From contig REEW01000112.1 of NCBI GenBank assembly GCA_007694885.1, forward strand, positions 1 through 41,458: 41,458 nucleotides of DNA, given 5' to 3'. This DNA is from Wenzhouxiangella sp. (lineage in GTDB: Bacteria; Pseudomonadota; Gammaproteobacteria; Xanthomonadales; Wenzhouxiangellaceae). Shown here in pieces: positions 5,387 to 29,248 of this stretch (position 1 is its first letter; every line of letters starts with the position of its first letter). The notes under the pieces are model-generated. The model searched no databases and had not been told where the DNA came from. It was given only the letters and a program-made list of their open reading frames with translations. The translations under genes and the position numbers were made by a program.

Positions 5387-5432
5387 TCGAACCAATCGAC
5401 CACAGCGTTGCCCATACAATACTGCGGTCGGA

Positions 5433-5447
5433 CGTCTGAGACAGACG
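5433..5447 (+). terminator. Short hairpin with T-rich tail between cdsA and rseP
   Basis: CGTCTG-AGA-CAGACG forms a perfect 6-bp stem with a 3-nt loop, followed by AGCCGTTTCTTT. A -10-like TACAAT lies just before it at 5415-5420. It could be a weak terminator or attenuator. The stem is short, so confidence is low. Confidence 0.3.
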
Positions 5448-5492
5448 AGCCGTTTCTTTACGCGCCCTTTTCATGGATGATCCAAGGTTTTG

Positions 5493-6863
5493 ATGGAGTT
5501 TCTCGGTCCCGTCTTCTGGTTGCTGGTTGCCCTGGGTCTGCTGGTGACCTTCCACGAGTTCGGCCACTTCTGGGTGGCCAGGCGCTGTGGTGTGCGGGTT
5601 CTGACGTTTTCGGTCGGTTTCGGCCGCGCGCTGTGGTCACGAACCGCCCGCGACGGCGTCGAATACCGGATCGCCGCCATCCCGCTGGGCGGCTATGTCC
5701 GCATGCTCGACGAGCGCGAACGCTCCGTGCCCGCAGATCAGCGCGACCAGGCCTTCAATCGCAAGCCGGTCGGGCAACGAATGGCCATCGTCGCGGCCGG
5801 GCCGGTGTTCAACCTGATTTTCGCCGTGGCCGCATTCTGGCTGATGTTCGTGGTCGGTGTACCCGAAACCCGGCCCCTACTTGGCCCGACCACCGGTCTG
5901 GCGGCCGAGGCCGGGCTGAGCGAGGGCGACATGATCACCCGCATCAACGGCCAGCGAACCGAATCCTGGACCCATGCCCTGCTCGGCCTGATGAGCCCGG
6001 CGCTGGATCGACGCAAGGTCATCGTCGAGGTCGAGAATCGGGACGGCCAGCGGCGCGAGGTCGAACTGGCCCTGGACCAGCTGGGACGCGAATTCAGCGA
6101 GGAAAGAACCCTGGAGTTCGTGGGCATGGAGCCCTGGCGCCCGGAACTGCCACCGCTGATCGGAGATGTGGCCGCCGGCTCTCCGGCCGCTGAGGCCGGC
6201 TTGCAGGCCGGCGATCGCCTGGTCCGCATCGGCGATGATGCGGTCAGCGGCTGGCGCGAAATTGCCCGCCTGATTCCCGAGCAGGCTTTCGACGCCGACG
6301 GCCAGGCGCGTTCGGTGACGCTGACCGTCGAGCGCGACGGACAACTGATCGAACACCGGATCGAACCGGAGGTTCAGCAGGGACGACCGGTCATCGGCAT
6401 CCAGGCGCCGGAGGCGGATGCGGCTGCCCGGGCCGAGATGGAGCGCGCCTTCGTGGTCCTGCGCTACGGACCGCTGGAGGCGCTTCCGCAGGCGACCAGC
6501 GAAACCTGGCGACTGACCACCGCCACCCTCGGCATCCTCGGCCGCATGATCACCGGCTCGGCCTCGCTGAGCAACCTGTCCGGGCCGATCACGATCGCCC
6601 AGATGGCCGATAGCTCGGCCAGCCTCGGGCTGACCCGTTTTCTCTTTTTCCTCGGACTGATCAGTCTTTCGCTGGCGATCATCAACCTGTTGCCGATCCC
6701 CATGCTCGACGGCGGTCACCTGATGTACTACATCGCCGAGGTGATCAAGGGCTCGCCGGTTTCGGAACAAACCCAGATCGTCGGCCAGTACATCGGCTTG
6801 ATCATGGTCTTCGGTTTGATGAGCCTGGCCATATTTAACGATATCTTACGACTGATCACCTAA
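5493..6863 (+). CDS. rseP: Site-2 intramembrane metalloprotease RseP
   Basis: RseP cuts anti-sigma factor RseA within the inner membrane after DegS, releasing the envelope-stress sigma factor, and clears signal-peptide remnants. The 456-residue protein has the zinc motif HEFGH at residues 21-25 in the first membrane helix, two central PDZ domains (repeats of GLxxGDxxxRI type near 130-160 and 230-260), and the second catalytic motif NLLPIPMLDGGHL at 398-410. ATG 5493 follows AAGG at 5484-5487. An in-frame TTG at 5490 is an alternative start. bamA follows 55 bp downstream, the conserved arrangement. Confidence 0.96.
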   Translation: MEFLGPVFWLLVALGLLVTFHEFGHFWVARRCGVRVLTFSVGFGRALWSRTARDGVEYRIAAIPLGGYVRMLDERERSVPADQRDQAFNRKPVGQRMAIVAAGPVFNLIFAVAAFWLMFVVGVPETRPLLGPTTGLAAEAGLSEGDMITRINGQRTESWTHALLGLMSPALDRRKVIVEVENRDGQRREVELALDQLGREFSEERTLEFVGMEPWRPELPPLIGDVAAGSPAAEAGLQAGDRLVRIGDDAVSGWREIARLIPEQAFDADGQARSVTLTVERDGQLIEHRIEPEVQQGRPVIGIQAPEADAAARAEMERAFVVLRYGPLEALPQATSETWRLTTATLGILGRMITGSASLSNLSGPITIAQMADSSASLGLTRFLFFLGLISLSLAIINLLPIPMLDGGHLMYYIAEVIKGSPVSEQTQIVGQYIGLIMVFGLMSLAIFNDILRLIT

Positions 6864-6918
6864 ACTGCGGCGCCCTGTCCTGGGGGTCAATGCAAGGATC
6901 TGGAACGGAACGTATTTC

Positions 6919-9348
6919 ATGAAACAAATTTGTCTTCTGCTCATTCTGCTACTCGCCGCCGGCCACGCCTTCGGTGAAAGCTTCCGGATCGCGGATATCC
7001 GCGTGGAGGGCCTGCAGAGAATCTCCGAGGGCAACGTATTCAGCTTCATCCCGGTCGAAGTCGGCGACACCATGACCCCGTCGCTGACCCGGAGCACCAT
7101 TCGCGATCTCTATCGCACCGGGTTTTTCGACGATATCGCGCTCAGCCACGAGCAGGGCACCCTGATCATCACGGTCGAGGAGCGCCCGGCAATCGCCTCG
7201 ATCAGCATCAGCGGCAACCGCCAGTTGAAGACCGATGACCTGATGCCCGCGCTGGCCGCGATCGGCATTGCCGAGGGCGAAATCTTCGATCAGCTCAGCC
7301 TCGACCGGGTCCGCCAGGAACTGGTTCGCCAGTACTTCGGCCGCGGCTACTACGGCGTCAGTGTCGACACCCGCGTCGGCAGCCTGGCCCGCAACCGGGT
7401 CAGCCTGGTGATCGTGATCGAGGAAGGCGATCAGGCGCGCATCCGCCACATCAATATCGTCGGCAATGAAAGTTTCAGCGAGTCAGAGCTTCGATCGGAA
7501 TTCGAATCGCACACCACCCGCGGCCTGTTCTTCTGGCGCGGCCGCAACCAGTACACGCGCGAAAAGCTCTCCGGCGATCTCGAGGCACTGCGCTCGTTTT
7601 ACCTGGACCGGGGCTTCATCGATTTCGCCATCGAATCGACCCAGGTCTCGATCAGCCCGGACAAGCAAGACATCTTCATCACCGCCAATATTCGAGAAGG
7701 CGAAGTCTTCACAGTCAGCGACGTCACCCTCACCGGCGAGTTGATCCTGGCTGAATCCACCCTGCGCCAGCTGATCGCGACCGAAGCCGGCACGCGCTTC
7801 TCGCGCCGCGAGGTCGAGCAGAGCGTGGACAACATCTCGGCGATTCTGGCCAACATCGGCTACGCCTTCGCCAACGTCAATCCGGTCCCGCGCGTCGACC
7901 GGGACACCCAGGAAGTCGAAATCAATTTCTTCATCGAACCGGGCAAACGGGTCTATGTCCGCCGGATCGAGTTCCAGGGCAATACCCAGACCAAGGACGA
8001 GGTTCTGCGTCGCGAGATGCGCCAGTTCGAAGGCGGCTGGTTCTCGCAGTCCGCCCTGGACCGCTCCCGTATGCGAATCCAGAGACTGGGCTTTTTCGAA
8101 AACGTCAACATCGAAACCAACCCGGTCGACGGAACCGAGGATCAGATCGACATCGTGGTCAGCGTCGAAGAGCAGCCATCGGGCAGCTTCCAGGTCGGTC
8201 TGGGCTACTCCCAGATCCAGGGACTGATCGCCTCGATCTCGATCGACCAGGACAATTTCCTCGGATCCGGGCGCCGGTTCGGGTTCTCGGTCAGCCGCAG
8301 CCGGATCCTGACCCAGGTCGGGGTCAGCTACACCAATCCTTTCTACACCGACGATGGCGTCTCGCGCGGGTTTTTCCTGCGCTACACCGAATTCGATCAG
8401 GGGCGGGCCAATATTTCCTCGTTCTCGACCAGCCAGGCCGCCGCCGGCGTGAACTATGGCTTCCCGATCACCGAGCTCAGTTTTCTACGCTTCGGCGGCT
8501 CGGCCCAGCGTGTGGACATCAATCTACCCGGCGTTCTCGTACCCGAAGATCCGCAAGATCCGGACAGCCCAATCGTGGTCCGCATCCCTGCCGACCGCCC
8601 TCTGGCCATCTCGCTGGACGAGGACGGCGACGGTTTCCTGTCGCGTCGGGAACGGCGCATCACGACCTACCGGCTCGATGCGACCTGGTCGCGTGACAAT
8701 CGCAATCACTTCCTCAACCCGACCCGCGGCTCACTCAACCGACTCAACGCCGAAATAGCGCTACCTGGCAGCTCGCGTGAGTTCTACAAGTTGAGCTATC
8801 GCGGTCGCAAGTTCTGGCCGATCGGTCAGCGCATGGCCTTCAGCGTACGCGGCGATGTGTCCTATGGCGACTCCTACGACAGCTACGACTCCGACCTGGG
8901 CCTGGAACCGGTCGAACCGGTGCGCGTGGCCGGTAACTGCCAGCTCGACGAAATCGTGACCCTCGACAAGGGCCTGCCTTTCTACGAGCATTTCTTCGGT
9001 GGCGGCGTGTCCGACATTCGCGGCTTCGACGACAACTCGCTCGGGCCGAAAGATCAGTTCTGCCGTTCGGTCGGCGGCGACTTCAAGCTCGTCCTGGGGA
9101 CCGAGCTGGCCTTCCCGATTCCGTTCGTGGAGGCCCGCGGCACGCGCCTGGCGTGGTTCGTCGATGTCGGAAACGTGTTCCAGGACATTGACGCCTTCGA
9201 TACCGATCTGCTGCGCGCCTCGACCGGCATTTCGCTGACCTGGCAGGCACCGATCGGACCGATCATCATCAACCTGGCCACCCCGCTGCGCAAGCGCGAC
9301 GGTGACGACACCCAGGCCCTGCAGTTCACCTTCGGTCAGGTTTTCTAG
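6919..9348 (+). CDS. bamA: Outer-membrane assembly factor BamA
   Basis: BamA is the essential Omp85 barrel that inserts outer-membrane proteins. The 809-residue product begins with a signal peptide (MKQICLLLILLLAAGHAFG). About five POTRA domains follow to around residue 420, then a 16-strand barrel ending in the terminal aromatic FGQVF. The loop-6 motif is DIRGF, the usual VRGF with Ile for Val. Two cysteines flank this region (GNCQLDE and QFCRSVG) and may form an extracellular disulphide. It sits between rseP and skp, as in most gammaproteobacteria; bamD lies in another operon at 27.5 kb. Confidence 0.97.
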   Translation: MKQICLLLILLLAAGHAFGESFRIADIRVEGLQRISEGNVFSFIPVEVGDTMTPSLTRSTIRDLYRTGFFDDIALSHEQGTLIITVEERPAIASISISGNRQLKTDDLMPALAAIGIAEGEIFDQLSLDRVRQELVRQYFGRGYYGVSVDTRVGSLARNRVSLVIVIEEGDQARIRHINIVGNESFSESELRSEFESHTTRGLFFWRGRNQYTREKLSGDLEALRSFYLDRGFIDFAIESTQVSISPDKQDIFITANIREGEVFTVSDVTLTGELILAESTLRQLIATEAGTRFSRREVEQSVDNISAILANIGYAFANVNPVPRVDRDTQEVEINFFIEPGKRVYVRRIEFQGNTQTKDEVLRREMRQFEGGWFSQSALDRSRMRIQRLGFFENVNIETNPVDGTEDQIDIVVSVEEQPSGSFQVGLGYSQIQGLIASISIDQDNFLGSGRRFGFSVSRSRILTQVGVSYTNPFYTDDGVSRGFFLRYTEFDQGRANISSFSTSQAAAGVNYGFPITELSFLRFGGSAQRVDINLPGVLVPEDPQDPDSPIVVRIPADRPLAISLDEDGDGFLSRRERRITTYRLDATWSRDNRNHFLNPTRGSLNRLNAEIALPGSSREFYKLSYRGRKFWPIGQRMAFSVRGDVSYGDSYDSYDSDLGLEPVEPVRVAGNCQLDEIVTLDKGLPFYEHFFGGGVSDIRGFDDNSLGPKDQFCRSVGGDFKLVLGTELAFPIPFVEARGTRLAWFVDVGNVFQDIDAFDTDLLRASTGISLTWQAPIGPIIINLATPLRKRDGDDTQALQFTFGQVF

Positions 9349-9372
9349 GGTCCGATGGTGTAAATTGATGCG

Positions 9373-9945
9373 ATGCCGGGCCCGACTCATGCCAAGCTGA
9401 CCGCGCCGTCCAAGGGGTCCTGGGCAGCTGCAGTGCTGCTACTTGCCACCTTCGGCCTCGTCCTGGTCACCGACTCAGCCACCGCCGACACGACTCGTAT
9501 CGGCTACGTGGACATGAAGCGTCTGTTCGATTCGGCACCCCAGGTCGTTGCAGCCAGGGAGGCGCTGGACCGGGAATTCCGGCCCCGCAACGAAACCCTG
9601 ATCGCCGACGAATCGCGCCTGCAGGAGATGCAGGAGTCGCTGGCCGACAACCCGGACCTGAGTCCTGAGGATCGCTTCGAGCTCGAACGCGAGGTTCGCA
9701 ACCTGCGCCGATCCATCGACCGGCGCAGGGAAGACATGCGCGAAGAACTGCGGTTCCGGACCAGCACCGCGACCAAGGCGCTGGAAGAAACCATCGAAGT
9801 CGCCGTTCGCCAGGTTGCAGAGCAACGCGGCTACGACCTGATCCTGACCAGCCCGGTCGCCTATGCCGCTCCGGGCATTGACATCACCGACCGCATTCTC
9901 GAGTGGCTGGCCGACGACTTCTCTTCCCGCAACAACACCCCCTGA
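9373..9945 (+). CDS. skp: Periplasmic chaperone Skp/OmpH
   Basis: Skp is a trimeric periplasmic chaperone that holds unfolded outer-membrane proteins on their way to the Bam complex. The 190-residue product has an N-terminal signal or anchor segment (WAAAVLLLATFGLVLV, residues about 17-32, processed near TATADT-like residues). The family start TRIGYVDMKRLFDSAPQ follows, then a long charged coiled-coil (residues about 60-150) and a return strand GYDLILTSPVAY. The N-terminal extension before the hydrophobic core is longer than usual, so the start may be further in. bamA lies 24 bp upstream and lpxD 5 bp downstream. Confidence 0.9.
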   Translation: MPGPTHAKLTAPSKGSWAAAVLLLATFGLVLVTDSATADTTRIGYVDMKRLFDSAPQVVAAREALDREFRPRNETLIADESRLQEMQESLADNPDLSPEDRFELEREVRNLRRSIDRRREDMREELRFRTSTATKALEETIEVAVRQVAEQRGYDLILTSPVAYAAPGIDITDRILEWLADDFSSRNNTP

Positions 9946-9950
9946 CCCGG

Positions 9951-11003
9951 ATGACCCAGGTGCCGAACCGAAGCTATCGTCTGCGCGAACTGGCCGCCGA
10001 ACTCGGCCTGAATCACCGCGGCGACGACAGCGCCCGAATCAGCGGAGTCGGCACGCTCTCCCGGGCCGGCCCGAACGACGCCAGCTTCCTGGCCAACCCG
10101 GCCTATCGCGATGAGCTCGAGCACACCCGGGCGGCCGTGGTGGTGATGACGGCAAAGGCAGCCGAGTCCTACGCCGGAAATGCCCTGATCAGCGCCAACC
10201 CCTACGCCGACTGGGCCCGTCTGATCGAGCACCTGAGCCCGCCGCCACCGCACCAGCCGGGCATCCACGCCAGTGCCGTGGTGGCCGATACTGCCGGCAT
10301 CGCCGAGAGCGCCTCGATCGGCCCCCAGGCCAGTATCGGGGCCGGCGCCCGGATCGGTGAGCGGGTTCGCATCGGGCCGGGCTGCGTGATCGACGACGAG
10401 GTCGTGATCGGGGATGACAGCCTGGTTGTCGCTCGCGTCTACATCGGCGGGCGGGCCAGGCTGGGTCAGCGCGTCATTGTTCATCCGGGCGTGGTCATCG
10501 GCGCCGACGGCTTCGGCCTGGCCATGGATCGCGGGCAGTGGCGCAAGGTCCCGCAGGTCGGCAGCGTCCGGATCGGCGACGACTGCGAAATCGGCGCCAA
10601 CACCACCATCGACCGCGGCGCCATCGACGACACCGTGCTCGACGACGATGTGCGCATCGACAATCAGGTCCAGATTGCCCACAACGTCACGATCGGCGCA
10701 CACACCGCGATCGCCGGTTGTGTCGGCATCGCCGGTTCCACCCGGATCGGCCGCTACTGCATGATCGCCGGAGCCAGCGGCATCGGCGGGCATCTGGACA
10801 TCTGCGATTCTGTCATCATTACCGCCATGAGCACCGTGCTCGACTCCATCGACCAGCCCGGCGAGTACGGGTCCGGCATCCCGGCCCGGCCACACGGACG
10901 CTGGAAACGCCTGCTGGTTCGCCTCGGCCAGCTCGACGACTGGGCACGGCGTCTCAAACGCATCGAACAGCTCAACAAGAACAACGGATCCGCCAAGCCA
11001 TGA
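9951..11003 (+). CDS. lpxD: UDP-3-O-(3-hydroxyacyl)glucosamine N-acyltransferase
   Basis: LpxD adds the second hydroxyacyl chain in lipid A synthesis, using acyl-ACP. The 350-residue protein has the N-terminal uridine-binding domain ([13 protein letters not shown]) and then a left-handed beta-helix of hexapeptide repeats, including [17 protein letters not shown] with the catalytic-region His, and [13 protein letters not shown] chose ATG 9951, 5 bp after the skp stop; an upstream in-frame GTG at 9903 would overlap skp by 43 bp and add non-family residues. It overlaps fabZ by 4 bp (ATGA). Confidence 0.96.
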
Positions 11004-11470
11004 CCGACCCCAAAACCGTCGACATCGAGCGAATTCTCGACCTGCTCCCGCATCGCTACCCGTTCCTGCTGGTCGACCGCGTGCTCGATTACCAGTTCGA
11101 TCCGGTACCGCAGCTGCGCGCGCTGAAAAACGTGACCTTCAACGAACCGTTTTTCCAGGGCCATTTCCCCGGCCATCCGGTCATGCCCGGAGTACTCATC
11201 CTGGAGGCGATGGCCCAGGCCGCGGGATGCCTGGCCCACCTGGCCCGCGAGGCCGGCGGCTCGGCCGAAGCCTCGCTGTACTACCTGGTCAAAATCGACA
11301 AGGCGCGCTTCAGTCGCATCGTGGTACCGGGCGATCAGCTGGTCTTCGAGGTCGAGCAGAAGCGCTTGATGCGCAACATGGGAGTGTATTCGGCCCGGGC
11401 CCTGATCGACGGCCAGAGCGTGTCCAGCGCAGAGCTGTTGTGTGCGGCCAAGCCGAATCCTGCGGCATGA
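11000..11470 (+). CDS. fabZ: 3-hydroxyacyl-ACP dehydratase FabZ
   Basis: FabZ dehydrates 3-hydroxyacyl-ACP in fatty-acid elongation and competes with LpxA/LpxD for hydroxyacyl-ACP. The 156-residue hotdog-fold protein shows [15 protein letters not shown] near residue 13 and the active-site segment [22 protein letters not shown] with catalytic His and Glu. The start ATG 11000 overlaps the lpxD stop, and its own stop overlaps the lpxA ATG (ATGA, 11467-11470), so the lpxD-fabZ-lpxA genes are translationally coupled. Confidence 0.97.
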
Positions 11471-12237
11471 TCCATCCCACCGCCATCGTCGAAGAGGGTG
11501 CACGCCTGGCCACGGACGTCGAGATCGGCGCCTACAGCCTGATCGGCCCGGACGTGGAGATCGGCGCGGGTTGCCGGATCGGCCCGCACGTCGTCATCAC
11601 CGGACGCACCCGGCTGGGCCGGAACAATCGCGTTTTCCAGTTCGCCTGCATCGGCGAGGAGCCCCAGGACAAGAAGTTCGGCGGCGAGTCCTCGGCCCTG
11701 GAGATCGGCGACAACAACACCATTCGCGAATCCGTGACCATCAACCGCGGCACCGCCGAAGGCGGCGGTGTGACCCGGATCGGCGACGACAACTGGATCA
11801 TGGCGTATTGCCATATCGCCCATGACTGCCAGGTCGGCTCGCACATCGTCATGGCCAACGGCGCCACCCTGGCCGGTCACGTCGTCGTCGGCGATCACGT
11901 GATCTTTGCCGGCTACTCCGGCGCCCACCAGTTCTGCCGGATCGGCGATCATGCCTTTCTCGGCATGTACGGCGGCGTCAGCCAGGACGTGCCGGCCTAC
12001 GTCATGGTGTCCGGCCAGCCGCCGCGGCCGCGCGGGATCAACAGCGAGGGGCTGAAGCGACGCGGTTTCAGCGGCGAGCAGGTGCGCAACATCCGCGAGG
12101 CCTATCGGCTGATCTACCGCAGCGGCAAAAGCCGCGAGGAGGCGCTGGCCGAACTGGATCTGCGCCTGCCCGATCAGCCCGAACTGGCGATCATGATCGC
12201 CAGCGCGCGCGCCAGTGCGCGCGGATTGCTGCGCTAG
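11467..12237 (+). CDS. lpxA: UDP-N-acetylglucosamine acyltransferase
   Basis: LpxA performs the first step of lipid A synthesis, transferring a hydroxyacyl chain from ACP to UDP-GlcNAc. The 256-residue trimeric beta-helix protein starts [14 protein letters not shown]. It contains [25 protein letters not shown] with the catalytic-region His, [17 protein letters not shown], and the C-terminal [19 protein letters not shown] segment. The start overlaps the fabZ stop. lpxB follows 43 bp after the stop codon. Confidence 0.97.
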
Positions 12238-12280
12238 TGGGTCCGGCGTCCGCTGGCCCGCCAGAGCACCCCTGAGCGAC

Positions 12281-13441
12281 GTGGCTGAGCAGCCGCCGCT
12301 GCGCCTGGCCCTGGTCGCCGGCGAAGCCTCCGGCGACCTGCTCGCCGCAGACCTGGCCGAAGCGCTCCGGCAGCGCCATCCCGGCGTTGAACTGGCCGGT
12401 GTTGCCGGGCCGAGAATGCGCCAGGCCGGGGTCGAGCCCTGGTTCGAGGTCGAAGAATTGAGCGTCATGGGCCTGGCCGAGGTGGTTCGCCACCTGCCGC
12501 GCCTGGTCCGTCTTCGACGCGCGCTGAAACGACGCATCCTGGACTGGCCGGCGGCAGCCGTGGTCACGATCGACGCGCCGGATTTCAATCTCGGTCTGGC
12601 GCGCGGGCTGAAAGCAGCCGGCCTGCCGACCATCCACTACGTTTCACCCTCGGTCTGGGCCTGGCGCGCCGGGCGCATCCCGCGCATCGCGCGCTCGCTC
12701 GATCACTTGCTGACCCTGTTTCCCTTCGAACCCGAGTTGTATACGCCGCACGGACTTGCGGCGAGTTTCGTCGGCCACCCGCTGGCCGACGAATTGGCCG
12801 AGGGCCCCGACCGCGACTCGGCGCGCGCGGCACTGGGCCTGGACGGCTCCGCGCCGGTCATCGCCCTGTTGCCCGGCAGCCGGGACGGCGAGCTCAAACG
12901 CCACACCCGCCTGCTGGGCGAGACCGCGCGGATCCTACGGCAATCCAGACCGGATGCGCGCTTGCTGATGCTGCTGACCGGGGATCGGCATCGCGGCCTG
13001 GCCGAACAGCTGCTGGGCGGGCCGGACGGGACCGCCGGCATCCGTCTGGTTGCCGGCGCCACACGGGCCGGCCTCGAGGCCGCCGACGTGGCGGTCGCGG
13101 CCTCCGGCACGGTCACCCTGGAAGCCTTTTTGCTGGAATGCCCGCTGGTCGTGTTCTACCGCCTGGCACCGGTCACGTATCACCTGGCCCGGACGCTCAA
13201 GCTGGTGCGCTCGCGCCACGTCGCCCTGCCCAACATCCTGGCCGGCCGCGACCTGGTTCCCGAACTGCTGCAGCAAGCCGCCACACCCGGGCAGCTGGCC
13301 CGGGAAGCGCTGGCCTGGCTGGACGATGGCGAGCGCGCCGCCGCCTATCGAGTCCAATCGCGCCATTGGCGAGTGCGCCTGGCCCGCGGCGCCGGAAAGC
13401 ACGCCGCCCAGGCAATTCTGGCCGAGCTTGGCCGTGCCTGA
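12281..13441 (+). CDS. lpxB: Lipid-A-disaccharide synthase
   Basis: LpxB (GT19) joins UDP-2,3-diacylglucosamine and lipid X into the tetraacyl disaccharide at the inner-membrane face. The family N-terminus LRLALVAGEASGDLLAADL is followed by ELAGVAGPRMRQAGVE, HYVSPSVWAWR, LPGSRDGELKRH and ASGTVTLEAFLLECPLVVFYR. I chose GTG 12281, giving 386 residues, close to the E. coli length. A GTG at 12215 would overlap lpxA by 23 bp and add 22 residues outside the family; it lacks a ribosome site. The stop overlaps rnhB by 8 bp. Confidence 0.94.
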   Translation: MAEQPPLRLALVAGEASGDLLAADLAEALRQRHPGVELAGVAGPRMRQAGVEPWFEVEELSVMGLAEVVRHLPRLVRLRRALKRRILDWPAAAVVTIDAPDFNLGLARGLKAAGLPTIHYVSPSVWAWRAGRIPRIARSLDHLLTLFPFEPELYTPHGLAASFVGHPLADELAEGPDRDSARAALGLDGSAPVIALLPGSRDGELKRHTRLLGETARILRQSRPDARLLMLLTGDRHRGLAEQLLGGPDGTAGIRLVAGATRAGLEAADVAVAASGTVTLEAFLLECPLVVFYRLAPVTYHLARTLKLVRSRHVALPNILAGRDLVPELLQQAATPGQLAREALAWLDDGERAAAYRVQSRHWRVRLARGAGKHAAQAILAELGRA

Positions 13442-14036
13442 CGCCGCCTGGGAACCAGGACCGGGCCAACCCCTGATCGCCGGGGTCGATGAAGCCGGGC
13501 GCGGGCCGCTGGCCGGACCGGTCGTGGCGGCGGCGGTGATTCTGGATCCGCGCAAACCGATTCCGGGCCTGGCCGACTCCAAGACCCTCAGCGCGGCCCG
13601 GCGCACGGCCCTGGCCGAACAGATTCATGCGCGCGCCATCGCCGTGACCGTGGCCGTGGTCGGTCCGCGCGTAATCGATCGGATCAATATCCTCCAGGCC
13701 ACCCTGCAGGCCATGCGCGAGGCGATCGAACAACTCGCTCCTGCACCGCTGCTGGTCCGGGTCGACGGCAACCACGCCCCGTCCGTCCATCTCCCGGTCC
13801 AGACGGTGATCGGAGGCGACCGCAGCGATCGGGCGATCGCCGCGGCCAGCATCATCGCCAAGACCCATCGCGACGCGCTCATGCTCGAGCTGCACGCGCA
13901 GTTCCCGGACTACGGTTTCGACCGCCACAAGGGTTACCCGACCGCCGCGCACCTCGATGCCCTGCAACGGCTGGGCCCGACTGTCGCGCACAGGCAAAGT
14001 TTCCGGCCGGTGGTGCAGAGCCGGCTGTTCGACTGA
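13434..14036 (+). CDS. rnhB: Ribonuclease HII
   Basis: RNase HII nicks at ribonucleotides in DNA and degrades RNA in RNA-DNA hybrids. The 200-residue protein has the catalytic GVDEAGRGPLAGPVVAAAV near residue 18, SKTLSAARR, the Asp in LLVRVDGNH, and AAASIIAKTHRDALM with HKGYPTAAH. The start is GTG 13434, within the last codons of lpxB. In E. coli dnaE comes next; here the gene ends one base from the stop of a convergent acylphosphatase. Confidence 0.96.
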   Translation: MPDAAWEPGPGQPLIAGVDEAGRGPLAGPVVAAAVILDPRKPIPGLADSKTLSAARRTALAEQIHARAIAVTVAVVGPRVIDRINILQATLQAMREAIEQLAPAPLLVRVDGNHAPSVHLPVQTVIGGDRSDRAIAAASIIAKTHRDALMLELHAQFPDYGFDRHKGYPTAAHLDALQRLGPTVAHRQSFRPVVQSRLFD

Positions 14037-14044
14037 TTCAGTCG
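14030..14044. repeat. Palindrome spanning the convergent rnhB and acyP stop codons
   Basis: CGACTGA-T-TCAGTCG is a perfect 7-bp inverted repeat around a single base (14037). Each arm carries one of the two TGA stop codons. A loop of one base cannot form a normal hairpin, and no T-run follows, so a terminator role is doubtful. Confidence 0.4.
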
Positions 14045-14322
14045 GTCTGAAAGCCCGACTCGACGATGTCCGAGGGGTCGACCCCGAACCCTTCGACCGA
14101 GTCGACGCGAGCCGCCGTCGGGCCCTTGTGGAGCCAGGCTTCGAGCCGTTCCAGGGCCTCGGCCGGGCCACGCGCGGCAACCTCTACCCGCCCGTCCGAA
14201 AGATTGGTCGCCGAGCCGGTCAGTCCAAGCCGCTCGGCCTGGCGGCGCGTGGACGCGCGAAAAAAAACCCCCTGGACGCGTCCGGAGATCAACCAGCGCC
14301 GCCCCTCAACGGCCGTGCTCAT
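14038..14322 (-). CDS. acyP: Acylphosphatase
   Basis: Acylphosphatases hydrolyse carboxyl-phosphate bonds in small cytoplasmic molecules. The 94-residue product is the normal family size and has the signature GRVQGVFFR (catalytic Arg22), with the second motif GSATNLSDGRVEV carrying the catalytic Asn40. ATG 14322 is the likely start; a TTG one codon earlier is also possible. It overlaps the end of tlpA by 17 bp, so it is the last gene of a yihY-tlpA-acyP operon. Confidence 0.93.
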   Translation of the reverse strand: MSTAVEGRRWLISGRVQGVFFRASTRRQAERLGLTGSATNLSDGRVEVAARGPAEALERLEAWLHKGPTAARVDSVEGFGVDPSDIVESGFQTD

Positions 14323-14776
14323 CAATCCAGTCCGTGATCATGGTGCTGGTGATCGGCCCCAGCCAGGTATTGACGATGACCCCGCCGCGGTCGACCAGGA
14401 AGGTGGTCGGCAGCGCACGCGGCGCCCCCAGGCTTTCCGGCGGATCGAAGGTATCAACCAGCAAGATGGGGTAGCTGGCCGGGTACTGCTCGAGAAACGC
14501 AACGAAATCCTCCGGATCGGTGTCCTCGAACGCCAGGCCCAGCACGGTGATGTCGGCATGCGCATCGTGCAGGCGGGACAGGTCGGGAATTTCCTTGCGG
14601 CAGGGCGCGCACCAGGTCGCCCAGTAGTTGAGCACGACCCAGTCGCCACGATAATCGCTCAGGCGAACCGTCTCCCCGGCCAGCGACGGCAGTTCGACCT
14701 CGATCGGATCATCGGCCAGGGCCGGTCCCGCCAGCAGGCAGGCGGCCAGCAGGGCCACCAGGATAGTGGATTTCAT
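14306..14776 (-). CDS. TlpA-family periplasmic thiol-disulphide oxidoreductase
   Basis: The 156-residue product has a signal peptide (MKSTILVALLAACLLAGPALA) and a thioredoxin fold with the redox motif WATWCAPC at residues 52-59. The cis-proline loop LPTTFLVDRGG lies near 122-132. Proteins of this kind reduce disulphides in the periplasm, often for cytochrome c maturation. No cytochrome gene is adjacent here, though NrfA/NrfH at 32-34 kb would need such maturation. GGAGGAAT precedes the ATG, and the start overlaps the yihY stop (ATGA). Confidence 0.92.
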   Translation of the reverse strand: MKSTILVALLAACLLAGPALADDPIEVELPSLAGETVRLSDYRGDWVVLNYWATWCAPCRKEIPDLSRLHDAHADITVLGLAFEDTDPEDFVAFLEQYPASYPILLVDTFDPPESLGAPRALPTTFLVDRGGVIVNTWLGPITSTMITDWIDEHGR

Positions 14777-16041
14777 GATTCCTCCGGTTCAAAGGTCAAC
14801 AGTGATTTTACCGGCCGCCTCATCAGCGGAACGGCACGACCGTCGATCGACTTCAGGCCCTCGATCAGCGACCGGTCCCAGTAGCTTTCGTACGGCAGGC
14901 TGTCGATCTCGCCAACCGGCAGTATGAACGGCCCTGACCGATAGAGTTCCGCCAGGGTCAGTTCGTCGAGGTCGGCTGACAGTAACCAGTCGCCTTCATG
15001 GTCGGCCTGGATGAAGCGGGCGTCGTGAAACCAGCCGAGGATCCGTCGCAGCTGGGTGTCCGTGGCCGCTGACTCGCGACTGAGCAGGTCGCCGACCGAG
15101 AGCGCATCGCCGCGCCGCTGGGCTTGCCAGAAATGACCAAGCAGACGCATCGCCAGGAGCAGCTCGTGGCGTGGATTCCAGCGCCAGCTGGCGCGCCGGT
15201 AATTGAACGTGGTCAACGCCGCCGACACGCTCGCTCCGAGCAAGACCACCACCCAGGACAGGTAGATCCAGACCAGGAACAACGGAACGGCGGCCAGGGC
15301 TCCGTACAAGCGCTCATAGGTGGGGAAATTGGTCACGTACCAGATGAAGCCGGCCTTTGCCAATTCGAACATCAGGGCCGACAGCGCCGCTCCCACCAGG
15401 GCATGGTGCCAACGCACGCGACGGTTCGGCACAACAATGAAGACCAGGGTAAAAGCGATCAGGGCGACAATAAAGGGGGAGATCGCGAGCATGAATTCCT
15501 GGAGCACGCCGCGCACGATCTCCGGGGCCAGCAGGGGCAGCGCGGCCAGGTAGGAGGTCAGCGCCAGGCTGGCGCCGACCAGCAAAGGTCCGAGGGTCAG
15601 CACGGCCCAGTAAATCACCAGTCGGCTGGCCGGACGACGCTGGGTACGGACCCGCCAGATGCGGTTGAGGCTTTTCTCGATGGTTGCCATCAGCAGGATG
15701 GCCGTGACGATCAAAAACACCGAACCGGCGCCGGTCAAACCGGCGGTCCGCTCGACGAACTGGGTGATGTAGTCGTGGACGACGTCGCCGGCCGCGGGAA
15801 CGAAATTGGCGAAAATGTAGTCCTCGACCTCGCCGGCCCAGCGATCGAACACCGGAAAAGCCGAGACCACGCCGAAGGTCACCGCCATCAGGGGCACCAG
15901 GGCCAGCAGGCTGGTGTAGCTGAGGGCGCCGGCCGACTCGAAGCTGCGATCCTCGCGAAAATGCTGCCACAGGTGGCGACCGAAGGCCTTGAGCCAGCGC
16001 GGATCCAGCAGGGCCTCCAGCGGCGTATACGCACGGCCCAT
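14773..16041 (-). CDS. YihY-family inner-membrane protein
   Basis: This family was once called RNase BN; that assignment is not accepted and the molecular function is unsettled. The protein has about six membrane helices between residues 40 and 300. Conserved segments include SAGALSYTSLLALVPLMAVTF, VYWAVLTLGPLL-like YWAVLTLGPLLVGASLALTSY, and LYGALAAVPLFLVWIYLSWVVVLLGA. A cytoplasmic C-terminal region of about 130 residues follows. I place the start at ATG 16041 (422 residues). A start at 16113 would add 24 Lys-rich residues and overlap the divergent yfgD. A palindrome lies just upstream. Confidence 0.9.
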   Translation of the reverse strand: MGRAYTPLEALLDPRWLKAFGRHLWQHFREDRSFESAGALSYTSLLALVPLMAVTFGVVSAFPVFDRWAGEVEDYIFANFVPAAGDVVHDYITQFVERTAGLTGAGSVFLIVTAILLMATIEKSLNRIWRVRTQRRPASRLVIYWAVLTLGPLLVGASLALTSYLAALPLLAPEIVRGVLQEFMLAISPFIVALIAFTLVFIVVPNRRVRWHHALVGAALSALMFELAKAGFIWYVTNFPTYERLYGALAAVPLFLVWIYLSWVVVLLGASVSAALTTFNYRRASWRWNPRHELLLAMRLLGHFWQAQRRGDALSVGDLLSRESAATDTQLRRILGWFHDARFIQADHEGDWLLSADLDELTLAELYRSGPFILPVGEIDSLPYESYWDRSLIEGLKSIDGRAVPLMRRPVKSLLTFEPEES

Positions 16042-16048
16042 TGACAGC

Positions 16049-16063
16049 AAACGCTTAGCGTTT
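16049..16063. promoter_or_regulatory. Palindrome in the yihY-yfgD divergent gap, candidate operator
   Basis: AAACGCT-T-AGCGTTT is a perfect 7-bp inverted repeat around one base. It sits in the 58-bp space between the two divergent starts, 8 bp before the yihY ATG. This is a natural place for a dimeric regulator to control either gene. No regulator gene is nearby, and the site could be chance. Confidence 0.35.
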
Positions 16064-16099
16064 ACTCTTTCGCCTTGTTGTTTCCCGGATTTCTTTTCG

Positions 16100-16447
16100 A
16101 TGACACCCTCCATCTACCACAATCCACGCTGCTCCAAGAGCCGCCAGGCGCTCGCCCTGCTGCGCGAGCGCGGTTTCGAGCCTGACATTATCGAGTATCT
16201 CAAACAACCTCCCGAAAAAGAGCAACTGCGGGAGCTCATCGACCTGCTCGGTATTCGGCCGCGTGCGCTGCTCAGAAGCGGGGAAACGGAATACCGCCAG
16301 CTCGGCCTGGCCAATCCCGAACTCGACGACGATGCTCTTTTGCAGGCAATGTGCGAGCATCCTCGATTGATCGAACGACCGATCGTCATCCACCGACGAC
16401 AGGCCCGGATCGGACGTCCTCCCGAAACCATACTGGAAATTCTCTGA
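16100..16447 (+). CDS. yfgD: ArsC/YfgD-type arsenate-reductase-like protein
   Basis: The 115-residue protein belongs to the glutaredoxin-coupled ArsC family. It has IYHNPRCSKSRQALALLRERG at residues 5-25 with the reactive cysteine, and RPIVIHRRQARIGRPPETILEIL at the end. It resembles E. coli YfgD throughout more than plasmid ArsC, so arsenate reduction is possible but not assured. No ars operon gene is nearby. wrbA starts 2 bp after its stop, and the yfgD-wrbA-DUF2069 order suggests a housekeeping redox operon. Confidence 0.9.
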   Translation: MTPSIYHNPRCSKSRQALALLRERGFEPDIIEYLKQPPEKEQLRELIDLLGIRPRALLRSGETEYRQLGLANPELDDDALLQAMCEHPRLIERPIVIHRRQARIGRPPETILEIL

Positions 16448-16449
16448 CC

Positions 16450-19923: not shown

Positions 19924-19978
19924 CGCCGCTATACTACTGCACTCGCCTTGCCCCTCCCTACTCTTCACAGGCCAACGC

Positions 19979-20464
19979 TTGAACAATCTCACCATCCTGA
20001 CCACCGGCGGCACGATCGACAAGATCTATTACGACGACAAGTCGGATTACAAGATCGGCGAGCCGGAAATCGGACGAATCCTGAAAGCCATGGACGTGGC
20101 CTTCCGCTGGGAGGTTCGCGCCCTGATGCGCAAGGATTCCCTGCACATGATCGACGACGACCGCCGGCTGATCCGCCAGGCCGTTCTGGCCAGCGACGAG
20201 CGCCATTTCCTCATCACCCACGGCACCGACAGCATGACCAACACCGCCGCCGAGCTCGAAGATACCGGCGATCGGGTCATCGTCATGACCGGCGCCCTGC
20301 ATCCGGCCCGGTTCATCGATTCCGACGCGGTGTTCAACATCGGCTGCGCGATCGGCGCCGTCCAGACCCTGCCGGCGGGCGTATGGATCGTCATGAACGG
20401 CCGCATCTGGCACCCGGCCCAGGTGCGCAAGAACCGCTCGGCCAATCGCTTTGAGGCTGTTTGA
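19979..20464 (+). CDS. Single-domain asparaginase-like protein
   Basis: The 161-residue product covers only the N-terminal, catalytic domain of type I/II asparaginases. Both threonine motifs are present: ILTTGGTIDK at residues 5-14 and ITHGTDSMTNTAAEL near 79-93. The C-terminal domain, about 150 residues in full enzymes, is absent, and there is no sign of a frameshift remnant: the gene ends normally 6 bp before a repeat element. The start is TTG 19979, since no ATG or GTG sits near the family start. A TATACT (-10-like) lies at 19930-19935. Substrate is uncertain. Confidence 0.8.
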   Translation: MNNLTILTTGGTIDKIYYDDKSDYKIGEPEIGRILKAMDVAFRWEVRALMRKDSLHMIDDDRRLIRQAVLASDERHFLITHGTDSMTNTAAELEDTGDRVIVMTGALHPARFIDSDAVFNIGCAIGAVQTLPAGVWIVMNGRIWHPAQVRKNRSANRFEAV

Positions 20465-20469
20465 ATCGC

Positions 20470-20633
20470 TTTTACCGCAGATGAACGCGGATGAACGCAG
20501 ATCTGAAAAGCCCGAGTTACCGGAGTCCCCTGTTATTCCATCCCAAGGGCCATGCGGGCCGGTTTCTGGCAGGCAATCTCAAACCCCAAAGAGCCTTTCA
20601 TCCCCGTTCATCTGCGTTCATCCGCGGTTAAAA
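20470..20633. repeat. Inverted-repeat element, copy A
   Basis: About 164 bp with imperfect terminal inverted repeats of about 40 bp. Each end is built from a 10-bp tandem unit, GATGAACGCR, preceded by TTTTA(A)CCGC. The interior (20505-20590) shows no ORF of note. It sits between the convergent asparaginase and gcvT genes. Its ends match those of copy B at 23044-23205, but the interiors differ. No transposase is encoded; a non-autonomous or REP/MITE-like repeat is the best description. Confidence 0.75.
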
Positions 20634-20649
20634 TCCCCTCGCGCTCCAC

Positions 20650-21720
20650 TCAAATCTTTATCTGTCCGTTGCGGACGAAGGGTGGTTTGACGATGCGGGC
20701 GGGCAGGCGCTTGCCGCGCAGTTCGACCTCGGCCCCGGTCGCCTCGCCGGCCGGAATGCGGGCCAGGGCGATGGGGCATTCCAGGGTGGGAGAAAAACTG
20801 CCGCTGGTGACGCGACCTTCGCCTTCGGACGTGTGCACCAGCGCGCCGCTGCGCGGGATTGCACCCTTGCCCAGGACCAGGCCGACCAGGCGTTCGGGCA
20901 CCCCGACCCGGCGCTGGGCTTCGAGGGCGGCGCGGCCGATGAATTCGCGCTCCGGCGGATCGAAGGCCACCGTCCAGCCCAGGTTGGAGACCAGCGGGGT
21001 GGTGCTGGTGTCCATGTCCTGCCCGTACAGGTTCAGACCGGCCTCGAGACGCAACGAGTCCCGGGCACCCAGCCCGCAGGGCCGGACACCGGCGCCCGCC
21101 AACGCCGTCCAGAACTCGACGGCCAGGCCTGCCGGCAACAGGATTTCGAAACCGTCTTCGCCGGTATAGCCGGTCCGGGCGACGAAGTACTCGTCATGGA
21201 CGGCCACCCGGAACGGCCGGATCTCGCCCAGCGCGGCCGCGTTCAGGACCCCGATGACCCGGTCGCGGGCCTGGGGGCCCTGGACGGCAATCATGGCCAG
21301 GTCTTCGCGCTCACCGACTTCCACCTCGAAATCGCCGATCTGGTCCTGCATCCATGCCAGATCGGCCTGGCGGGTGGCCGCGTTGACCACCGTACGGTAA
21401 AAACCGTCCTCGATCCGATAGCTGATCAGATCATCGATCACCCCGCCCTGCTCGTTGAGCATGCAACCGTACAGCGCCTGGCCGTTGCTGATCCGGGCCA
21501 CGTCGTTGGCCAGCAGGCGACGCAGGTAGTCTTGTACACCCGGGCCGCGCAGATCGACCACGGTCATGTGCGAGACGTCGAACATGCCGGCCCCGGCGCG
21601 CACGGCGTGGTGCTCGTCCATCTGCGAACCGTAGTGGATCGGCAGCGACCAGCCGGCAAACTCGACCAGCTTGCCGCCGGCGTCGACATGGGTCTGGTGC
21701 AGCGGGGTGTGCAAGGCCAT
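20650..21720 (-). CDS. gcvT: Glycine cleavage system T protein (aminomethyltransferase)
   Basis: GcvT moves the methylene group of glycine, carried on GcvH, to tetrahydrofolate and releases ammonia. The 356-residue protein starts MALHTPLHQTHVDAGGKLVEFAGW. It contains MFDVSHMTVVDLRGPG, QALYGCMLNEQGGVIDDLISYR with the catalytic Asp, and GYTGEDGFEIL, ending KPPFVRNGQIKI. AGGAGCT precedes ATG 21720. It begins 2 bp after eno, so the two are cotranscribed. Its partners gcvH and gcvP are not in the window. Confidence 0.96.
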   Translation of the reverse strand: MALHTPLHQTHVDAGGKLVEFAGWSLPIHYGSQMDEHHAVRAGAGMFDVSHMTVVDLRGPGVQDYLRRLLANDVARISNGQALYGCMLNEQGGVIDDLISYRIEDGFYRTVVNAATRQADLAWMQDQIGDFEVEVGEREDLAMIAVQGPQARDRVIGVLNAAALGEIRPFRVAVHDEYFVARTGYTGEDGFEILLPAGLAVEFWTALAGAGVRPCGLGARDSLRLEAGLNLYGQDMDTSTTPLVSNLGWTVAFDPPEREFIGRAALEAQRRVGVPERLVGLVLGKGAIPRSGALVHTSEGEGRVTSGSFSPTLECPIALARIPAGEATGAEVELRGKRLPARIVKPPFVRNGQIKI

Positions 21721-21722
21721 GT

Positions 21723-26456
<4,734 letters not shown>

Positions 26457-26476
<20 letters not shown>

Positions 26477-27428
26477 GATCCGGGTCCAGGGCGGAAATCA
26501 GCGCGGCGAGGTCGTCCGGAACCGGCGCCGTGGCGACAACGGTCCGCCCGCTGTCCGGATGCGCCAGTTCGAGCCTGAGCGCGTGCAGCGCCTGGCGGGG
26601 AAATGCCAGCCAGGCCTCACGCTGGGCCGGGGTCAGGCCGGACGGCGCTGCGCTGCGACCGTAGACCGGATCGCCGACGATGGGGTGGCGCAGGTGGGCC
26701 ATGTGAACCCGGATCTGGTGGGTTCGACCGGTCTCCAGGGTCACCTCCAGCACGGTGGCGCCGGACAGTCGACGCTCGACCCGATAATGGGTGACGGCCG
26801 GGCGCCCGTCGGGCCTGACGACCTGGCGCCGCCGGTCGACCGGATGGCGCCCGATCGGGGCATCGACGCGGCCGCCGGCAATCGGCTCGCCCCAGATCAC
26901 GGCCAGGTAGCGACGGTGGATCTCGCGTTTTTTCATCGCCGCAACCAGCCGGCGGTGGCTGCCGGGGGTTCGGGCGATGACCAGGCAACCACTGGTGTCC
27001 TTGTCCAGGCGATGGACCAGCCCGGCCCGCGGCAGGTTCGCCAGGGACGGATCATGATGCAGCAAGGCGTTGACCAGGGTCCCGTCGGGATTGCCTGACC
27101 CGGGATGCACCACCAGCCCCGGGGGCTTGTTGACGATGATCAGGGCCGGATCTTCATGGATGATGTCGAGCGCGATGGCCTCGGGCTCGGGGCTGTCGCT
27201 GCGGGCCAGCAGTTCGGCGCAAAGATGAACCTCGTCGCCGGCCTGAACCGCGTGACGGGGCTTGACCGTGCGCCCGTTCAGGCGGATCTCGCCGGATCGA
27301 ATCCATGCCGCCAGGCGACTGCGCGAGAAATCCGGCCAGGACTGGGCCAGCAGCTGGTCGAGGCGCTGGCCGGCCTGTTCGGCGCCCACGGTCATGCGCT
27401 GGTTGACCGTCTCAGCCACCGCCAACAT
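26457..27428 (-). CDS. rluD: 23S rRNA pseudouridine synthase, RluD family
   Basis: RluD converts three uridines of helix 69 in 23S rRNA to pseudouridine. The 323-residue protein has an N-terminal S4 RNA-binding domain (RLDQLLAQSWPDFSRSRLAAWIRSGEIRLNG, residues about 22-52). The catalytic domain follows, with NKPPGLVVHPGSGNPDGTLVNALL and HRLDKDTSGCLVIA carrying the catalytic Asp, then ETGRTHQIRVHMAHLRHPIVGD. It is divergent from bamD across 87 bp, the same layout as in E. coli and Pseudomonas. An internal ATG 12 codons in is an alternative start. Confidence 0.95.
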
Positions 27429-27515
27429 CCGGTTGCTCGATTAACAGCACTTTACGGCGCAATCTGCGATCATGCATCCCTGTTTTCGGCAACCATTTGT
27501 ATCATCTCAGACATT

Positions 27516-28328
27516 ATGCAGAATCCATTTCACCCAGACCGCCCTCTGCGCGCCCCGCTGGCGCTCCTCCTGATTTTGACCCTTGCCCTGGCGGTCGGCT
27601 GCGGCCGCGAGACCCGCGAGGACGAACGCGGTGCCGAAGAGCTGTACGCGGAAGCCCAGCGCGCCCTCAACGCGCGCAACTTCAGCAACGCCATCGACCT
27701 GTACCGGGATCTGACAATTCGCTTTCCGTTCGGCCGTCATGCCGAACAGGCTCAGCTCGACATGGCCTATGCGATGTACCGGGCCAACCAGCCGGAGCGC
27801 GCGCTGACCACGCTGGACCGCTTCATCCGCACCTATCCGACCCATCCGAACGTGGACTACGCCTGGTACCTGAAAGGCCTGGTGCACTACGAGCAGTCCA
27901 TGGGTTTTCTGCGCCGCCTGTTCCCCGACCAGGTCGTCGACCGTGATCAGCAAAGCGCCCGCAACGCGTTCTCCGATTTCCAGGAGTTGATCCAGCGTTA
28001 CCCGCAAAGCCGCTACGTGGCCGACGCCCGGCAGCGCATGGTCTTTCTGCGCAACATCATGGCCGAATACGAAGTCGAGGTGGGCCGCTACTACTTCCGG
28101 CGCGGAGCCTACGTGGCGTCGCTGAATCGGGCCCGCTACACCATCGAGAACTTCCCCGGCGCGCCGGCCAACCTCGACGCGCTGGATTTGATGGCCCGCA
28201 CCTTCAAGCGGATGGAACTGCCCGAACTGGCCGCCGACACCCGCCAGGTCCTGGAATACAACTTCGAGGACCTGCTCGACGAAGACGAACGCGAGAGCTT
28301 CTTCCGACGCCTGTGGCCATTCGATTGA
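27516..28328 (+). CDS. bamD: Outer-membrane assembly lipoprotein BamD
   Basis: BamD is the essential lipoprotein of the Bam complex, which binds BamA and substrate C-termini. The 270-residue product has a lipoprotein signal with lipobox ALAVGC, lipidated at Cys29. TPR repeats follow (AEELYAEAQRALNARNFSNAIDLYRDL, then RFIRTYPTHPNVDYAWYLKGLVHYEQ). ATG 27516 gives the correct signal sequence. It is transcribed away from rluD, and ispA follows 27 bp downstream. Confidence 0.95.
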   Translation: MQNPFHPDRPLRAPLALLLILTLALAVGCGRETREDERGAEELYAEAQRALNARNFSNAIDLYRDLTIRFPFGRHAEQAQLDMAYAMYRANQPERALTTLDRFIRTYPTHPNVDYAWYLKGLVHYEQSMGFLRRLFPDQVVDRDQQSARNAFSDFQELIQRYPQSRYVADARQRMVFLRNIMAEYEVEVGRYYFRRGAYVASLNRARYTIENFPGAPANLDALDLMARTFKRMELPELAADTRQVLEYNFEDLLDEDERESFFRRLWPFD

Positions 28329-28355
28329 AGCGGTAGCCCCGAAACATACGCATCC

Positions 28356-29234
28356 ATGTCCTTCTCGACCCTGGTCCGGCGAGTTGAAATCGAGCTGGAA
28401 CGTCGCATCGATGCCGGCGTCGAGTCCGAAGGTCGCTTGTCCCAGGCCATGCGCTACGCGGTCTTCAACGGTGGCAAGCGCCTGCGCCCCTTGCTGGTCT
28501 ATGCCTGCGGGGAAACCCTGGGTCTGACGCTTGAGCGGCTCGACGCTCCGGCCTGCGCGGTCGAACTGATCCACTGCTATTCGCTGGTCCATGATGATTT
28601 GCCGGCCATGGACGATGACGACCTGCGCCGCGGCAGACCCACCGCCCACCTGGCGTTCGACGAGGCCACCGCCATCCTGGCCGGCGATGCGCTGCAGGCC
28701 CTGGCCTTCCAGATCCTGGCCCAGGACGGGCGCAGCGACCGCGAGCGGGCGGCGGGATGCAACATGATCTCCGAGCTGGCTTCAGCCTGTGGCGTCTCCG
28801 GAATGGCCGGAGGTCAGGCCCGGGACCTGGAACTGGAGCACAAAACCCCCGACCAGGCCACGGTCGAGACCATGTTCCGGATGAAAACCGGGGCACTGAT
28901 TCGGGCCGCGGTCATGATGCCGACCGCGCTGGCTCCCGATCTGCCGCCGGCCCAGGTCCAGGCACTGCGCGAGTTCGGCGAAGACATCGGTCTGGCCTTT
29001 CAGATTCGCGACGATCTGCTCGACGTCGAGGGCAATACCGAGATCATCGGCAAGCAGGCCGGCGCCGACCAGGCGCTGGGCAAGGCGAACTGGCCGGCGC
29101 TGTTCGGGATCGAGGGCGCGCGCCGCCGCATCATGGAACTCGACGCGCGCGCACGCGCTTCCCTGGAGCGCATTGAAGGCGATACTTCCGGCCTGCGCCG
29201 GCTGGCCGACCGGCTGCTGCACCGGGCTGCCTGA
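28356..29234 (+). CDS. ispA: Farnesyl diphosphate synthase (trans-polyprenyl synthase)
   Basis: IspA condenses IPP with DMAPP and geranyl-PP to farnesyl-PP, the precursor used by UppS. The 292-residue protein has NGGKRLRPLLVYA at residues 38-50, the first Asp-rich motif DDLPAMDDDDLRRG at 80-93, MAGGQARDLE, and the second Asp-rich motif DDLLDVEGN at 219-227. It is close in length to E. coli IspA (299). It follows bamD rather than xseB, and is followed by a convergent queC instead of dxs. Confidence 0.93.
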   Translation: MSFSTLVRRVEIELERRIDAGVESEGRLSQAMRYAVFNGGKRLRPLLVYACGETLGLTLERLDAPACAVELIHCYSLVHDDLPAMDDDDLRRGRPTAHLAFDEATAILAGDALQALAFQILAQDGRSDRERAAGCNMISELASACGVSGMAGGQARDLELEHKTPDQATVETMFRMKTGALIRAAVMMPTALAPDLPPAQVQALREFGEDIGLAFQIRDDLLDVEGNTEIIGKQAGADQALGKANWPALFGIEGARRRIMELDARARASLERIEGDTSGLRRLADRLLHRAA

Positions 29235-29248
29235 ACGACCGGCGAGCC

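Follow-up and report, generated by a model that had tools for sequence, protein, structure and literature searches.

Wenzhouxiangella has very probably replaced the MEP pathway by a mevalonate pathway with a fused HMG-CoA reductase-mevalonate kinase

The mevalonate pathway has been described as specific to Wenzhouxiangella when the genus is compared with Marinicella (a 2020 paper, PMC7691419; this and the three papers that follow are cited from excerpts), and its presence in the genus is therefore already known. The pathway is held to have a 3-hydroxy-3-methylglutaryl-CoA (HMG-CoA) synthase of its own, independent of branched-chain amino-acid breakdown (PMC9636800). In Halobacterium salinarum and Leishmania mexicana, labelling has shown leucine to be converted to HMG-CoA in five steps and to enter the mevalonate pathway, so that the leucine route itself is not new (PMC8791446). 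Most of the Legionella species analysed lack HmgS, and the substitute has been left open (PMC13001223). Here we describe a 41,458-nucleotide stretch of Wenzhouxiangella sp. DNA (contig REEW01000112.1 of assembly GCA_007694885.1, analysed whole and called the window), in which the places held in relatives by genes of the 2-C-methyl-D-erythritol 4-phosphate (MEP) pathway are empty, together with a mevalonate operon elsewhere in the same genome that encodes HMG-CoA reductase and mevalonate kinase in one protein. Across the Wenzhouxiangella-group lineage, the MEP pathway has almost certainly been lost, with the mevalonate pathway as its replacement.

The source genome (G000) is a 2.60-Mb draft of 215 contigs, 88.3% complete, and the window is one of these contigs. 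It was compared as one of 25 genus genomes, alongside two genomes of a second family (f5) and 14 from ten other families of the order; within the genus, G018 is assembled into one 3.84-Mb contig, and six genomes reach 99% completeness. None of the 25 genus genomes and neither of the f5 genomes contains dxr, ispF or ispG, while all three are present in each of the 14 others (one dxr match, in G040, being an 86-bit end fragment under the cut-off). For ispH, matches over cut-off number 0 of 27 in the genus and f5 versus 14 of 14 elsewhere, with two 19-bit matches below the cut-off in the genus. G000, the sole genome searched for dxs, yields partial matches of 54 and 26 bits against a cut-off of 466. 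The first-pass annotation of the window had proposed loss of the MEP route from gene order, and the genome comparison bears this out: intact MEP genes were sought elsewhere for five of the seven enzymes (dxs in G000 only), and none was found.

G000 carries a four-gene mevalonate operon on a separate contig, C181 (Table 1), and the order histidine kinase, diphosphomevalonate decarboxylase, phosphomevalonate kinase (PMK), fusion, isopentenyl diphosphate (IPP) isomerase and rho is kept in G018, G017, G003 and G024 (tblastn). HMG-CoA reductase is matched in 24 of the 25 genus genomes and in both f5 genomes, compared with one of the 14 others, and is encoded by two genes in G000. The HMG-CoA synthase of G000 lies on contig C207, between genes read as a fumarate-reductase iron-sulfur subunit and tatA; it scores over the PF01154 cut-off (113 bits), and its best structure matches are HMG-CoA synthases. 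A gene read as thiolase-like adjoins HMG-CoA lyase on contig C69. Synthase, reductase, mevalonate kinase and IPP isomerase, which the first-pass annotation had named as the enzymes to look for when suggesting that IPP is made from mevalonate, are all found in this genome. The decarboxylase matches solved diphosphomevalonate decarboxylases and reaches only 160 bits with NF040704 (cut-off 475); it is predicted to be a diphosphomevalonate rather than a phosphomevalonate decarboxylase. The best solved structure match of the PMK-like protein is 3k17 (1e-15). Among the f5 genomes, G028 has a gene read as squalene-synthase-like between the fusion and PMK, and G039 has isomerase, fusion and such a gene before the contig ends; this gene matched no family at E 1e-50.

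The fusion is 752 amino acids long, with residues 1-387 matching class II HMG-CoA reductase and residues 451-725 matching mevalonate kinase, both over cut-off. Residues E83, K268, D284 and H382 align to E83, K267, D283 and H381 of structure 1qax, which we take to be catalytic in the enzyme of Pseudomonas mevalonii, and these four positions, together with K453 and D589 of the kinase half, are invariant in 14 diverse fusions. In the best 80 of at least 305 confirmed matches, the frame runs open from reductase into kinase in 79 loci and to residue 740 or beyond in 75; L103 has one internal stop, and L094, L097, L108 and L126 end early. In some GC-rich loci, among them L032, L068, L086 and L092, our home-made gene caller chose antisense frames, and the gene order of these was not used. 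By record title, carriers among these 80 include Wenzhouxiangella, Nevskia, Rhodanobacter, Marinobacter gelidimuriae, Litchfieldella, Calditrichota, candidate division KSB1 and Balneola. Wenzhouxiangella is also the title of most of the best-matching named records for the fusion protein, which is one of the grounds for the genus label. Because many carrier records are metagenome drafts, wrong binning is possible. The fused reductase-kinase is a clear variant of the known pathway, in which mevalonate may be handed from the reductase half to the kinase half.

In the window itself, the loss is visible as two closed junctions. In other families of the order (14 genomes matched), all eight loci read have dxr between cdsA and rseP, with matches to the cdsA model NF008635 adjoining it in eight loci; in three of the four ispF loci read, from 14 matches, an end of eno is present with open reading frames between them that read as ftsB and ispD. 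Because dxr and ispF occupy these positions in relatives, the cdsA-rseP and eno-gcvT junctions of the window are taken to be their emptied places. The first-pass annotation had described the cdsA-rseP gap as devoid of genes and gcvT as standing where ftsB-ispD would follow eno, and the family scan agrees on both. It had also listed the gap between frr and uppS, which is real; dxr does not lie at frr-uppS in the relatives read, so this gap says nothing about the MEP pathway. Its placing of ispA between bamD and queC stands as well, queC by family scan and bamD from reading of the DNA alone, and the retention of ispA and uppS is plain from the scores of both. The family scan also matched rluD in the window. 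The gene read as ftsB that separates eno from ispD in relatives is missing at 21720-21723, as are ispD-ispF.

Table 1. Features of the window and of the mevalonate operon of the same genome (contig C181, locus L024).
Feature	Position	Strand	Evidence and remarks
frr, ribosome recycling factor	3301..3858	+	TIGR00496, 217 bits, over cut-off; 3 bp before uppS
uppS, polyprenyl diphosphate synthase, retained IPP user	3862..4590	+	TIGR00055, 271 bits, over cut-off
cdsA, phosphatidate cytidylyltransferase	4583..5386	+	NF008635, 132 bits, under cut-off 385
cdsA-rseP gap, 106 bp	5387..5492	.	dxr place in order relatives
rseP, site-2 protease	5493..6863	+	TIGR00054, 363 bits, over cut-off
rnhB	13434..14036		family scan
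gcvT	20650..21720	-	TIGR00528, 401 bits, over cut-off; place of ftsB-ispD-ispF in relatives
eno, enolase	21723..23015	-	TIGR01060, 651 bits; 2 bp from gcvT
bamD-like lipoprotein gene, before ispA	~27516..28328	+	read from DNA, without family scan
ispA, farnesyl diphosphate synthase, retained IPP user	28356..29234	+	NF045485, 324 bits, over cut-off
queC, where the first-pass annotation expected xseB or dxs	29249..29929	-	TIGR00364, 197 bits, over cut-off
histidine kinase	G000:C181 6299-7642
diphosphomevalonate decarboxylase	G000:C181 7687-8652		TIGR01240, 261 bits, over cut-off 171
PMK-like	G000:C181 8653-9714		TIGR01220, 105 bits, under cut-off 166
HMG-CoA reductase-mevalonate kinase fusion	G000:C181 9759-12017		TIGR00532, 406 bits; TIGR00549, 250 bits
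type 1 IPP isomerase	G000:C181 12037-12591		TIGR02150, 161 bits, over cut-off 106
response regulator (by reading), then rho on other strand	G000:C181, after isomerase

From these genes we infer the enzyme activities, the flux and the order of events as follows. The MEP pathway would have disappeared in an ancestor, with clean gaps where dxr and ispDF had stood. HMG-CoA synthase would join acetoacetyl-CoA and acetyl-CoA, the class II reductase half of the fusion would convert the resulting HMG-CoA to mevalonate, and the kinase half of the same protein would phosphorylate it. The PMK-like kinase and diphosphomevalonate decarboxylase would then lead to IPP, which the type 1 isomerase would convert to dimethylallyl diphosphate (DMAPP), and IspA and UppS of the window would consume IPP and DMAPP.

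The first enzyme of this scheme is unevenly distributed. PF01154 matches 11 of the 25 genus genomes, and a profile built from the genus strongly finds the same 11. Among the 12 genus members that are at least 90% complete, the synthase is present in six (G005, G006, G012, G015, G017 and G023) and absent, by PF01154, from six (G003, G010, G018, G019, G022 and G024). A tree of the 11 synthases shows the same groups as the fusion tree, with that of G016 as a long divergent row; the fusion tree covers 21 of the 25 genus genomes and two of f5 (G007, G013, G020 and G021 are left out), and some of its unlabelled genomes are incomplete. A single loss of the synthase is not supported, as six changes are needed on the fusion tree, at least three of them forced by starred branches; shuffling of the synthase labels gave an equally good result in 73 of 500 cases. 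The G016 synthase (L179 9712-10932) diverges much more strongly than its ten counterparts and lies in a different gene context, and it looks as if it was acquired separately.

The second HMG-CoA reductase of G000 is a class I enzyme of 522 amino acids (L023 8785-10353, G000:C89) encoded beside a polyhydroxyalkanoate (PHA)-synthase gene; it scores 352 bits with TIGR00533, under the cut-off, and class I matches of at least 412 bits occur in ten genus genomes. Class I reductase was considered as a companion of synthase loss and dropped, the two not being associated. In the ten other families the sole reductase match, a weak one (L031, G036:C18:229849-231752; 102 bits), lies directly beside an HMG-CoA lyase match and looks catabolic rather than biosynthetic.

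In the six synthase-less near-complete genomes, leucine breakdown is the sole known source of HMG-CoA seen. All six have a strong match to methylcrotonyl-CoA carboxylase (MCC), as do three of the six synthase-holding genomes, the PF01039 scores being 524-537 bits in G000, G003, G010, G018, G019, G022 and G024; G005 was scored as lacking MCC, its sole match (409 bits) being of a class that G013 and G022 carry as an additional copy. Because all six keep MCC, leucine may supply their HMG-CoA. The genes liuB-liuC-liuD stand in this order, read fully in G000, G003, G010, G018, G019 and G024 and at the start in G022, and the G018 beta subunit scores 815 and 788 bits against solved MCC beta subunits versus 501 against geranyl-CoA carboxylase. 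The LiuC-type hydratase encoded between the carboxylase genes matches no family over cut-off, and the same is true of the leucine/tryptophan-dehydrogenase-like and acyl-CoA-dehydrogenase genes upstream of the HMG-CoA lyase gene in G018. Several points speak against such a supply: the association between carboxylase presence and synthase absence is not significant (Fisher p 0.18), HMG-CoA lyase would compete for HMG-CoA, and no LiuB, HMG-CoA lyase or thiolase match above 50 bits occurs in the 80 fusion loci. Furthermore, since HMG-CoA lyase is over cut-off in 37 of the 41 genomes, leucine breakdown seems to be an ancestral trait of the order, and it is therefore not special to the synthase-less species.

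Beyond the genus, 46 carrier genomes were picked from the 80 fusion loci; these, of unstated completeness, are related to each other, and G041 seems to duplicate G023. The fusion can serve as a convenient marker: 35 of the 46 have no dxr over cut-off (one of them with a 21-bit fragment), and 11 have it. HMG-CoA synthase is matched in 29, comprising 27 of the 35 carriers without dxr versus two of the 11 with it (Fisher p 0.0008, on related genomes), and the two dxr-keeping genomes (G057 and G058) barely pass the cut-off of 25 bits, with 27 and 29.

Hopanoid genes occur close to the mevalonate cassette in three lineages (L066, L069 and L071). Four loci were scanned for such genes: squalene-hopene cyclase is over cut-off in L066 and L069, HpnH in L066, L069 and L071, and HpnN in L071, while HpnG-like matches in L066 and L071 and an HpnA-like match in L071 fall under it; L067 has by reading a short hpnH-like piece alone. 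The genomes of L071 (Litchfieldella) and L067 keep dxr, and those of L066 and L069 have none over cut-off. A separate group of at least 16 of the 80 loci (L089, L095, L096, L100, L101, L102, L104, L105, L109, L110, L113, L114, L116, L117, L120 and L124) has no decarboxylase or PMK match above 50 bits beside the fusion, with at least 4 kb upstream present. The four of these that were read (L101, L105, L120 and L124) have a gene upstream that reads as acyl-CoA-synthetase-like, and dxr is missing in 10 of the 11 tested genomes of this group.

Replacement of the MEP pathway by mevalonate has several observations to contend with. The synthase is unmatched in 14 of the 25 genus genomes, so that by standard models the pathway is incomplete in some members; G020 (84% complete) has no HMG-CoA reductase match; and in G000 the PMK-like protein falls under its family cut-off, with the synthase just below that of TIGR01835 (353 versus 360 bits). 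The absence of MEP genes covers dxr, ispF, ispG, ispH and, in G000 only, dxs; ispD and ispE were not searched. Since G000 is 88% complete and in 215 contigs, its own absences would be weak without its relatives. This incompleteness would also favour a reading in which MEP genes lie on missing contigs or were moved by general rearrangement, as would the absence of dnaE beside rnhB, for which the first-pass annotation had itself cautioned about rearrangement, and of ftsB beside eno. However, dxr, ispF, ispG and ispH are over cut-off in none of the 25 genus genomes and are matched in all 14 others (dxr of G040 by the fragment alone), and because the genus genomes include the one-contig G018, the absence is not a matter of assembly. 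For these four enzymes the caution is largely refuted, and we reject this explanation as extremely improbable. A further alternative is that two routes coexist, with the mevalonate cluster serving hopanoids or squalene alone and the MEP pathway the rest. Retention of dxr in 11 of the 46 carriers fits such a division, as does the dxr-keeping Litchfieldella, with its cluster beside hpnH and hpnN, and the dxr-keeping carriers may use both routes; none of the tested MEP enzymes occurs in the genus, however, and there two routes deserve next to no credence.

With replacement as the preferred reading for the genus, two readings concern the supply of HMG-CoA in the synthase-less relatives. Production of HMG-CoA from leucine by MCC and the LiuC-type hydratase is a tentative proposal, to which we give slightly under an even chance on the gene content. 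The same guarded standing applies to its extension, in which synthase-less Wenzhouxiangella and other fusion carriers would build all their isoprenoids solely from leucine-derived HMG-CoA, and in carriers that keep the MEP pathway the cassette would draw on leucine as a supplementary supply, hopanoids being one possible use. Rather doubtful, though by no means negligible, is that these relatives hold an HMG-CoA synthase that escapes the models, such as a recruited FabH-like enzyme of the thiolase fold. The genus synthase profile, at E 0.01 or better, picks up one or more matches in 39 of the 41 genomes; those other than true synthases are weak (17-45 bits) and in FabH-sized frames, read as FabH. 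These weak matches are equally present in MEP-using relatives, however, and PF01154, which detects archaeal control synthases as well as the divergent f5 type (~60 bits), finds nothing in the six near-complete genomes.

A single order in which an essential pathway has been exchanged offers a clean case for what drives MEP loss. If the leucine proposal is true, amino-acid catabolism underlies the making of the cell-wall carrier lipid and of quinones, and the synthase-less genomes would contradict the view, in the excerpts of PMC9636800, that the mevalonate pathway is independent of branched-chain amino-acid breakdown. The missing synthase also bears on the substitute for HmgS that the literature leaves open in Legionella (PMC13001223, in part); the main text of that paper, so far as excerpted, names neither Wenzhouxiangella nor leucine, and its table S1 may list the genus. 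A literature search by title, with few subscription journals, met nothing about the fusion, nothing about bacterial mevalonate pathways fed by leucine alone and no report of MEP loss in Wenzhouxiangella, and the available passages of PMC7691419 mention neither MEP loss, the fusion nor a missing synthase.

Compared with the classical bacterial mevalonate pathway, that of Wenzhouxiangella has the same steps and enzyme families, the phosphomevalonate kinase putatively, and an operon, in genomes from which MEP genes are absent. It differs in joining class II reductase and mevalonate kinase in one protein, in an unlinked synthase that is not found in six of the 12 near-complete genus genomes, and in the class I reductase match of ten genomes. 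Legionella, according to the excerpts of PMC13001223, also lacks PmvK, whereas Wenzhouxiangella has a PMK-like gene. The leucine route of H. salinarum and L. mexicana is known by labelling, while that of Wenzhouxiangella is proposed from genes and would be the sole source, no synthase having been found. Closest to the fusion in design is MvaE of Enterococcus faecalis, which is likewise bifunctional with HMG-CoA reductase (PMC13001223, in part); there the partner is a thiolase, two steps upstream, whereas in Wenzhouxiangella it is mevalonate kinase, the next step.

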